Assembly: GCA_009783205.1 (NCBI GenBank)
Contig: WRHO01000002.1
Span: forward strand, 1-64,000
DNA length: 64,000 nt
Direction of reading: 5' to 3'
Source: Oscillospiraceae bacterium
GTDB lineage: Bacteria; Bacillota; Clostridia; Oscillospirales; Ruminococcaceae
Shown: one piece after another, positions 33,668-63,115 of the stretch
Numbering within the stretch: the stretch's first letter is position 1
Layout: the number at the start of each line of letters is the position of its first letter
Notes under the pieces: model-generated
Told to the model about the DNA's origin: nothing
Databases searched by the model: none
Seen by the model: the letters and a program-made list of their open reading frames with translations, nothing else
Program-made: the position numbers and the translations under genes

Positions 33668-33704
33668 GGCGAGTGCCGGGAGAGGTTTTCGGAGGTTGCC
33701 TAAA
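33668..33704 (+). repeat. 37-nt partial copy of the MITE-like element end
   Basis: ggcgagtgccgggagaggttttcggaggttgcctaaa; reverse complement is 35/37 identical to 61210-61246. Confidence 0.85.
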
Positions 33705-57226: not shown

Positions 57227-57489
57227 ACATTGTCGTATTTGCGGACGAGTTGTCGAAAGTTTTATATAGCCAATATGTAATATATATAGTATAATTGTAT
57301 TATAGCAGATTGACATTTTGTATACTATATCCTGACGACTGATTTTTCGCAATACAGCGTTGAATTTTGCTTAAATATAAGCGTATATTCGTACAAAATT
57401 CGCCTTGTCTTGCAAAAAATCTGTTCGCCAATCTACAGCACACAAAAAGTCAAACCGCTATATAAAAACCGCAACGGGAGGTGTGTTTT

Positions 57490-60032: not shown

Positions 60033-61139
60033 TTATGTTCCGTTACCCGCCGGGTGATTACTTGAAAGATATTTTCGCACCATTAAGGCAATTTTAAATA
60101 TAATCGCGTGTTCAAATTCGCGAAGGTCTAACCCGGTAAGCTTTTTTATTTTATCCAACCTGTACACAAGGGTATTACGGTGTACAAAGAGTTTTCTCGA
60201 CGTCTCCGAGACATTAAGGTTGTTTTCGAAAAAGCGTTGAATAGTAAAAAGGGTTTCGTGGTCTAACGATTCTATCGAGCCTTTTTTGAAAACCTCGCGT
60301 AAAAATGTCTCGCAAAGTGTTGTCGGGAGGTGGTAAATCAACCGCGCTATCCCGAGGTTTGTATAACACACAATCGTTTTATCCGTATCAAAAACCTTAC
60401 CCACCTCAATAGCAATCTGCGACTCTTTAAACGAGCGGGCTAATTCCTTAATTCCCGTTACCGGCGCGCCGATTCCGACGTTGACCTTTGCGAAAAACTC
60501 ACCCGAAAGGGTGTCCGATATAGAGCGGGCTAATTTTTCGAGGTCTTTTACGGCGGTATTGTTCCTCAATTCTTTGACGAGTACAATATCGCTGTCGGTA
60601 ATTTTAAAGACAAAATCCTTACTTTTGTCCGGAAAGAGATTTTGAATAATCTCATACGCGGATATGTCCGCCGACGTAACAATACTTATCAGAAAAACAA
60701 CACGGTTTACGTCCGCGTTAAAATGTAATTCTCTCGTTTTAATCCCTATATCCCCGGGAAGCACATTGTCTAATACAATATTTTTTATAAAGTTACTCTT
60801 ATCATATTTTTCGTCATAATGCTGTTTAATCAGGCCTAAGGAAATCGAAAGCAACGCCGCCTGTGCAAATGCTACTGCGTCATCACCCTGAACAAAAACC
60901 GCATGGTCAAGCTTTCCCGCGTTTCCGAAGGGTTTATATGTAAATCCCTCGCGAGTAAACGCCTCGTCCGACCCCTGTTCATCGCTTAAGTCAACCGCAT
61001 AAAAATTGCTTCGCGTTCCCGTCTTGTCCGAATCGCTACAGGCGATGATGGTTTCGTTATTGTCAATAACCCCTATTTCCTTGCCCTCGGCGGCGTCACG
61101 CAGTTGGTTTATTGCGTTTTGAAATATTTTATTAGACAT
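60033..61139 (-). CDS. PucR/CdaR-type helix-turn-helix transcriptional regulator
   Basis: C-terminal FFENNLNVSETSRKLFVHRNTLVYRLDKIKKLTGLDLREFEHAIIFKIAL (PucR HTH_30). Confidence 0.85.
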   Translation of the reverse strand: MSNKIFQNAINQLRDAAEGKEIGVIDNNETIIACSDSDKTGTRSNFYAVDLSDEQGSDEAFTREGFTYKPFGNAGKLDHAVFVQGDDAVAFAQAALLSISLGLIKQHYDEKYDKSNFIKNIVLDNVLPGDIGIKTRELHFNADVNRVVFLISIVTSADISAYEIIQNLFPDKSKDFVFKITDSDIVLVKELRNNTAVKDLEKLARSISDTLSGEFFAKVNVGIGAPVTGIKELARSFKESQIAIEVGKVFDTDKTIVCYTNLGIARLIYHLPTTLCETFLREVFKKGSIESLDHETLFTIQRFFENNLNVSETSRKLFVHRNTLVYRLDKIKKLTGLDLREFEHAIIFKIALMVRKYLSSNHPAGNGT

Positions 61140-61209
61140 TTTTAAGACCATACCCTCTCTGAGCCGTAAAAAGCTCAATGAAATCAGTCGAGCTAAAAGT
61201 TATACCACT

Positions 61210-61377
61210 TTTAGGCAACCACCGAAAACCTCTTCCGGCACTCGCCGGCTGAAAAATTCCGCCATACTTCGTTGATTTTTCTTTAAATATCAACGGATAT
61301 TTAAAGAAAAATCGCCTCGTCTGACGAAATCTTCATCTCGACGAATACACGAAACAGGTTTTCGGTAATTGCCTTTA
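61210..61377. mobile_element. MITE-like element: TTTA / 18-bp TIR / palindromic core / 18-bp TIR / TTTA
   Basis: TTTA 61210-61213; GGCAACCACCGAAAACCT 61214-61231; perfect 18+18 bp hairpin 61274-61313; AGGTTTTCGGTAATTGCC 61356-61373; TTTA 61374-61377. No coding capacity. Confidence 0.7.
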
Positions 61378-61540: not shown

Positions 61541-63115
61541 ATGAAAAAATTCTATATAACAACGCCTATTTACTATCCCTCGGGAAATCCCCATATCGGA
61601 CATTGTTACACCACCGTCGCTTGTGACGCGATTGCGCGCTACAAAAGGTGGCAGGGGTACGACGTAATGTTTTCGACCGGAACAGACGAACACGGTATGA
61701 AGCTCGAGGAAAGTGCGCGTAAGGCGGGTAAAACACCAAAGGAATATGTAGACGAAATAGCGGGTCGTTTTATAAAGCTTTGGGGCTTTATGAACATAAG
61801 CTATGACCGTTTTATACGAACGACCGACGAAGAACACAAAAAAGCGGTTCAAAGAATATTCATAAAGCTTCACGAAAAAGGGCTTATATATAAGGGCGAA
61901 TACGCGGGGAAGTATTGCGTTCCGGACGAATCGTTCTGGACACAGTCACAGCTCGTAGACGGCAAATGTCCCGAGTGTGGGAGAGAGGTTATCGACGCAA
62001 AGGAAGAGGCGTATTTTATGAAGATGCAGCCCTTTGCCGAGAGAATAGAGAAGCTTCTTACCGAAACCGATTTTCTTCAACCGGCGGCGCGGGTAAACGA
62101 AATGGTAAATAATTTTATTAAGCCGGGTCTTGAGGATTTGTGCGTTTCGCGAACAACCTTTAAATGGGGAATACCCGTACCCTTTGACCCCGAACACGTT
62201 GTTTACGTATGGATAGACGCCCTCTCAAACTATATCACCCTCCTCGGATACGAGAACGACCGACACGACGATATGGGGTATTGGGGCGGGGACGGCGGCT
62301 ACGTAATGCAGTTGACCGCAAAGGATATAGTTCGTTTTCACTCGATAATATGGCCGGCAATTCTTATGGCACTTGAGCTTCCGTTTCCGAAACGACTCTA
62401 TTCGCACGGTTGGATTAATTTGGACGGTAAGAAAATGAGCAAAAGCTTGGGCAACGTAGTAGACCCGTTTATTTTGGGGGAACGCTACGGGGTGGACGCA
62501 ATACGTTATCAGATATTGAGCGATATGCCGTTTAACGGCGATTTCGATTTTAACAATCGGCTTATGCTAACGCGAATAAACACCGATTTGGCTAACGACC
62601 TCGGCAATTTAGTCTCGCGGACGGTCGCTATGGTTATTAAATATTTTGACGGGACGTTACCCGTTTTTGAGCGAGACGATTCAGAAAAGCTACCCTATGA
62701 CGACTCTTATGACAACGAGTTAATCAATATGTCGACGGCGTTAAGAAAAAAGGTCGACGGGCTTATTGAGGTTCCGCAGCTTGCACAGGCTTTGTCGGAG
62801 ATATTTGCGGTTATAGGAAGGGCGAACAAATATATCGACGAAACGACCCCTTGGATTTTAGCAAAGGACGACGCAAATAAGCCGAGACTCGCTACCGTAT
62901 TGTACAATCTTCTCGAGACGATACGAATTTGCTCGTCGTTATTGGCGGCGTTCATGCCGACAACAATGCCGCGGGTTTGGGAACAAATCGGCGTAGGCGA
63001 AGCCGACACGACCTATGAAAAAGCGGGAACATGGAACACCGAATACAACTATGTCGTAAAGAAGGGGGATATAATCTTCCCGAGGTTTGATATAGATAAG
63101 GAGCTTTCCGAATAA
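61541..63115 (+). CDS. metG: methionyl-tRNA synthetase (short form without C-terminal tRNA-binding domain)
   Basis: YITTPIYYPSGNPHIGHCYTTV; KMSKSLGNVVDPF; ends after the anticodon-binding domain (524 aa). Confidence 0.95.
   Translation: MKKFYITTPIYYPSGNPHIGHCYTTVACDAIARYKRWQGYDVMFSTGTDEHGMKLEESARKAGKTPKEYVDEIAGRFIKLWGFMNISYDRFIRTTDEEHKKAVQRIFIKLHEKGLIYKGEYAGKYCVPDESFWTQSQLVDGKCPECGREVIDAKEEAYFMKMQPFAERIEKLLTETDFLQPAARVNEMVNNFIKPGLEDLCVSRTTFKWGIPVPFDPEHVVYVWIDALSNYITLLGYENDRHDDMGYWGGDGGYVMQLTAKDIVRFHSIIWPAILMALELPFPKRLYSHGWINLDGKKMSKSLGNVVDPFILGERYGVDAIRYQILSDMPFNGDFDFNNRLMLTRINTDLANDLGNLVSRTVAMVIKYFDGTLPVFERDDSEKLPYDDSYDNELINMSTALRKKVDGLIEVPQLAQALSEIFAVIGRANKYIDETTPWILAKDDANKPRLATVLYNLLETIRICSSLLAAFMPTTMPRVWEQIGVGEADTTYEKAGTWNTEYNYVVKKGDIIFPRFDIDKELSE

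Follow-up and report, generated by a model that had tools for sequence, protein, structure and literature searches.

The 160-bp sequence upstream of a putative regulator gene in the window (the whole stretch of 64,000 nucleotides that was analysed) is a MITE. Its mobility is evident from dispersed copies, target duplications and empty sites, it shares a core with other element families, and this core folds in a strand-specific manner. We consider it likely that the element is a non-autonomous MITE that depends on a DDE-type transposase acting in trans, belonging to an ERIC-like superfamily in which the core is selected as a folded strand.

Copies, target duplications and empty sites

When the sequence was reread (Table 1), the terminal inverted repeats were found to differ at 2 of 18 positions (16/18 identical), the same 4-mer TTTA could be read directly on both sides, the 18-bp inverted repeat at the centre was exact and the ORF list contained no frame of at least 60 aa inside the element, all as originally predicted. 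In size (160 bp, i.e. below 500 bp), absence of an ORF and possession of terminal inverted repeats the element thus has the usual appearance of a MITE. According to the computed fold, the whole 160 bp is one long imperfect hairpin that extends beyond the centre, with a folding energy of -88.7 kcal/mol for the minus strand and only -58.8 kcal/mol for the plus strand. The perfect centre is limited to this copy and a few others; most copies of the family to which it belongs, designated family A, have GATATTCGCAGAAAAATC on one side and keep an internal loop at the centre.

Table 1. Positions of the element, its parts and related features in the window.
Feature	Position	Strand	Basis
MITE, family A of this genome, 160 bp	61214-61373	minus (motif, RNA-like strand)	other copies; hairpin fold
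Left TTTA of the 4-bp target site duplication	61210-61213	.	read from sequence; family-A flank count
Right TTTA of the 4-bp target site duplication	61374-61377	.	read from sequence; family-A flank count
Left terminal inverted repeat GGCAACCACCGAAAACCT (family consensus GGCAACCTCCGAAAACCT)	61214-61231	.	alignment of copies
Right terminal inverted repeat AGGTTTTCGGTAATTGCC	61356-61373	.	16/18 match to left repeat
Conserved core	61243-61342	minus	covariance models R1 (77.0 bits) and R2, trained on elements of other genomes (45.5 bits)
Internal loop of core, 5' strand, GUCAGAC-G-AGGC	61314-61325	minus	alignments A1, A2
Internal loop of core, 3' strand, AACG-A-AGUAUGGC	61261-61273	minus	alignments A1, A2
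Apical stem-loop of core, perfect 18-bp palindrome GATTTTTCTTTAAATATC-aacg-GATATTTAAAGAAAAATC	61274-61313	.	sequence
Second full-length superfamily member, ends TATAGCAGATTGAC / TATAGCGGTTTGAC, TA-flanked	57303-57460	minus	R1 76.8 bits at 57331-57430
Family-A remnant or mini-derivative of 33 bp, lacking the core, flanked by near-duplicates TTTA/TTCA	33668-33700	.	BLAST in window; comparison with contig C8 derivative
Regulator gene, putative PucR/CdaR-type	60033-61178	minus	ORF list; C-terminal helix-turn-helix
Gene reading as methionyl-tRNA synthetase (putative, metG-like)	61541-63115	plus	ORF list

Given that the whole element recurs in at least 10 other places of the 1.91-Mb genome (49 contigs) as near-complete copies with 91-98% identity, its architecture is not due to chance; several partial copies were also present. 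The aligned family-A copies share their terminal bases and the short flanking repeats differ from copy to copy. Exact and differing 4-bp target duplications were found in 6 of the 11 full copies, compared with 0.9% of control pairs in which the left flank of one copy was paired with the right flank of another. Contig breaks are expected at repeats, and several draft contigs start or stop at family-A copies. In G006 and G021, the genomes of two relatives, the sequence from the regulator to the metG-like gene could be aligned with the element missing, i.e. the site is polymorphic for presence and absence.

Two readings had been put forward in the original prediction, a non-autonomous transposable element and a structured 5' leader of the regulator. 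Copies, differing target duplications and the empty sites in G006 and G021 settle the matter in favour of the MITE and remove the leader. That the sequence could be a leader or regulatory RNA of the PucR-type gene was suggested by its stable fold and its location on the same strand, 35 bp upstream of the listed start, but the region is not conserved at the same place in these two relatives and the neighbours of the other copies, which occur in both orientations, are unrelated genes; this makes the idea hardly credible. With gene calls taken as simple ORFs, the orientation of elements relative to flanking genes looked random (27 same, 24 opposite), so that an effect on neighbouring genes is unsupported.

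The ends, duplications and empty sites also support transposition in trans by DDE transposases. An autonomous partner or a transposase with matching ends, such as the original prediction had envisaged, was not found in this 49-contig draft, in which family-A copies lie at contig ends. When the element ends were compared with all fetched loci and eight other genomes, just mini-derivatives and unrelated insertion sequences were obtained. Among the PF01609, PF13340 and PF13358 transposases examined there was no autonomous partner, and an IS630-type transposase (PF13358) is absent from this genome. An autonomous partner would be expected to have the ends GGCAACCTCCGAAAACC. A 1.9-kb segment between two copies in locus L102 was considered as a compound transposon and rejected, since it reads as carrying an aminopeptidase gene. 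A phage collection queried with a Pseudomonas element gave no match.

The core-less mini-derivative in the window (Table 1) directly follows the end of a dnaN-like gene, and a similar 33-bp derivative with exact TTTA flanks is located on contig C8. Palindromes of 33-50 bp consisting of the ends alone and resembling the derivative in the window were seen on contig C8 and in a Pseudomonas genome.

Element families and their shared core

More than 30 places in this genome were found with the central 73-105 bp as query, and about 45 with R1, a covariance model of the core. The recurring part is a core of about 100 nt with the internal loop GUCAGAC-RAGGC / AACG-M-AGUAUGRC. The hairpin elements that carry it fall into several families, grouped by simple arm identity, whose tips are mutually dissimilar (GAAGTTGTGTTCATAG in family D, TACTCCTTAACTGC in E, TAGCAGTTCC in F, GACCTCCACGGAAA in G and TACCGCTTAACTATT in H), and further families with other tips are also present. 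All families are of near-equal length (157-160 bp) and have the same core fold. Judged from these comparisons, it is the core and not the ends that is conserved between families.

The target sites differ as well. Family D is found at T(T/A)A (TWA), with a 3-bp duplication in 5 of 7 elements, and each of the 14 elements in families E to H is flanked by TA on both sides. The TA duplication that characterizes IS630/Tc1-mariner-type MITEs was thus found in families E to H and not in family A. The second full-length member in the window (Table 1), which sits between rsmG-like and parB-like genes, has a 97.6% identical twin on contig C13. One family-E copy (L164:9229-9294) was located on a contig that IMG/VR lists as viral. 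In all families an apical internal loop (CGMAG / CRAGG) resembles the main loop reversed, about one helical turn away, and there is a third, weaker loop outside; this may be a repeated module.

The core was present in Bacillota, Bacteroidota, Pseudomonadota and Fibrobacter. At least 108 stretches carried the loop pattern, and the matches listed included Oscillospiraceae, other Clostridia, Saprospiraceae and other Bacteroidetes MAGs as well as Pseudomonas, Stutzerimonas, Nitrosospira, Pseudoduganella, Lutispora and Fibrobacter. The many-genome searches used strict filters and a capped number of candidates, which makes the counts lower bounds. With R1, 25 pattern-positive genomes had at least 1 to 144 copies each, presence among relatives was patchy (at least 34/60), and the core was found in at least 18/399 genomes of the host's own phylum and at least 79/399 genomes drawn from the phylum of a Pseudomonas genome. 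Weaker R1 matches sampled in the latter kept the fold and the RAGGC / AACG loop. Rfam searches at gathering and permissive thresholds returned no family (sub-cut-off miRNA matches only reflect the long hairpin), and a text search of the literature with the core sequence retrieved no paper describing it. Covariance models make such hairpin elements annotatable.

Several variants were observed. In L308, L309, L311-L314 and L318 two cores arranged head to head, one per strand and with about 5 bp between them, are enclosed by shared terminal repeats (for example GAGCACCATATAGTTTA in L311). Variants of 223 bp (L079:1251-1475, L125:2963-3186 and L134:2763-2986) contain an additional stem-loop (GTTGAC...GTCAAC, about 63 bp) placed precisely within the 3' side of the conserved loop, which gives a three-way junction. 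Related, unannotated plasmid hairpins of Diaphorobacter and Cupriavidus (L272:2480-2574 and L273:2477-2576), which adjoin IS66 and IS481 genes, have kept the AAGGC/AACGC loop and the apical loop and have lost the GUCAGAC/GUAUG part. A TPP riboswitch match was located near one element (L203:2386-2490).

MITEs are usually defined by their ends, which are read by the transposase, and their insides are expendable. In the present elements it is the inside that shows conservation across phyla, and it is the ends and target sites that vary, so the core must be of some use to the element.

Probable selection on one folded strand

Part of the loop is fixed in advance by the search pattern, and invariance is therefore to be judged from covariance-model hits. 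In hits found by the model and not by the pattern, pairing was kept in 94.2% of cells, compensatory cells numbered 268 compared with 76 in shuffles, and covariation was 0.616 compared with 0.188 when shuffled and at most 0.175 when slid. The loop residues were near-invariant in hits that had not been selected by the pattern, and two loop-region pairs fixed in the search pattern varied compensatorily in the model hits (A-U to G-C and C-G to A-U). One loop position pair, scored in 128 elements, was A/C in 83, G/A in 36, A/A in 9 and G/C in none.

For a function of purely double-stranded DNA, G.T and A.C mismatches are expected to be equally frequent. The arm mismatches were 355 G.T versus 76 A.C when unweighted and 117 versus 35 when weighted by family, and 31 of 37 untied families showed the same bias (p = 4e-5). 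It was most pronounced in the inner and middle arm (95:23) and less so at the tips (22:12). Since the arm mismatches are of the G.U rather than the A.C type, one strand appears to be selected as a folded single strand.

These observations bear on the possibility that the elements are an ordinary MITE family, in which the palindrome is two joined transposon ends, the likeness between families reflects shared ancestry of the ends and the core has no function. Copies, terminal inverted repeats and target duplications would suit any MITE, and core-less mini-derivatives with target duplications exist, but conservation of the core instead of the ends between families, near-invariance of the loop in hits not selected by pattern and the strand asymmetry of the mismatches all speak against it, and we regard it as rather improbable.

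The single strand under selection is probably RNA, as suggested by the mismatch pattern; G.T is more stable than A.C in single-stranded DNA as well and RNA is for this reason not proven over single-stranded DNA. The hairpin could instead form in one strand of the DNA while it is replicated or transferred, and a DNA-processing enzyme would read the loop. Folded single-stranded DNA would account equally well for the strand asymmetry and for a mismatched loop that is conserved, whereas target duplications and inverted ends indicate double-strand DDE transposition and, more indirectly, the random orientation to genes gives no sign of a replication-strand bias; a single-stranded DNA structure is accordingly seen as unlikely, if somewhat less so than a core without function.

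In the mechanism that we favour, a DDE-type transposase acting in trans would recognise the family-A ends and make the 4-bp target duplications, and over time the ends would have been fitted to different transposases with 4-bp, TWA and TA targets. A single, deeply conserved structured core would be common to all superfamily members and be under selection as a folded single strand, most probably RNA from read-through transcription. Given the random orientation relative to genes, the core probably serves the spread or tolerance of the element itself and not a neighbouring gene. A simple reading is that the outer ends would be read as DNA by the transposase and the inner part as RNA (or single-stranded DNA) of one strand.

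Comparison with ERIC and other known systems

A self-cleaving ribozyme related to twister-sister and carried by the MITE was considered and not adopted. Both have a short internal loop between two helices, the core loop C-R-A-G / C-G-M-A resembles the twister-sister catalytic loop GCNAG / GCUC-AU (PMC5660989, PMC11620745), and there are variants of the element that carry an extra helix in the loop. Among the L1 residues, C6, A8, G9, C60 and A63 are matched, but G5, G59 and U61 are not; as key catalytic residues and the second stem-loop have no counterpart in the core, and Rfam gave no match, such a ribozyme is very unlikely.

RUP of pneumococcus and other IS630-mobilised MITEs resemble the present elements in having a TA target, mobilisation in trans and a hairpin (PMC2229807), and several families described here are always TA-flanked. 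In contrast, family A has 4-bp duplications and resides in a genome without PF13358; the likeness to RUP is one of description. By description, too, the Correia/NEMIS elements of Neisseria and the Rickettsia palindromic elements are similar, being short palindromic mobile repeats of several families (PMC2229807, PMC10969869).

The closest comparison is with ERIC (IRU, RU-1), likewise a small MITE-like repeat with TA at the termini and a long hairpin transcript (PMC2229807). The ERIC consensus was matched at about 90% identity in genomes of E. coli, and five ERIC loci from different genera were scored with R2, a covariance model trained on pseudomonadotal and other elements with ERIC left out. 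In each of these five loci the top match was ERIC, placed in the correct register on one strand, at weak scores of 22.2, 13.9, 12.8, 10.8 and 9.3 bits (E 1.5e-5 to 0.14, E-values of home-made covariance models being rough); R1 matches were weaker than those of R2. As the best spurious score in the R2 control (86 kb of other loci) reached 11.6 bits, single weak matches are unconvincing alone, and it is the shared register across five loci that makes the placement convincing. The ERIC loop AAGGCG / CAACGCA-CATG is in register with R2, though shorter by about one base on each side, and the ERIC ends TATACTC resemble the family-E ends TATACTCC. Family A differs from ERIC in length (160 versus 127 bp), in its 4-bp duplications instead of TA (which is found in sister families E, F, G and H) and in its hosts, those of ERIC being enterobacteria, and no overall sequence identity between the two was seen. 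Based on the shared structure and residues, a common origin of ERIC and the core superfamily is likely, if slightly less firmly held than the favoured mechanism. In Yersinia, ERIC is reported to have an orientation-dependent effect on mRNA stability (PMC2229807), a precedent for a role at the RNA level.

A wider reading, in which ERIC is one branch of a pan-bacterial superfamily of mobile hairpins that need a single conserved, structured RNA core for their spread and have repeatedly switched between unrelated transposases via changed ends, with the core retained, is possible and is offered tentatively. ERIC is the best-studied bacterial repeat and has been used for decades in typing. If it belongs to the superfamily, ERIC would have relatives in Clostridia, Bacteroidota and Pseudomonas, and the shared core would be the place to look for its function.
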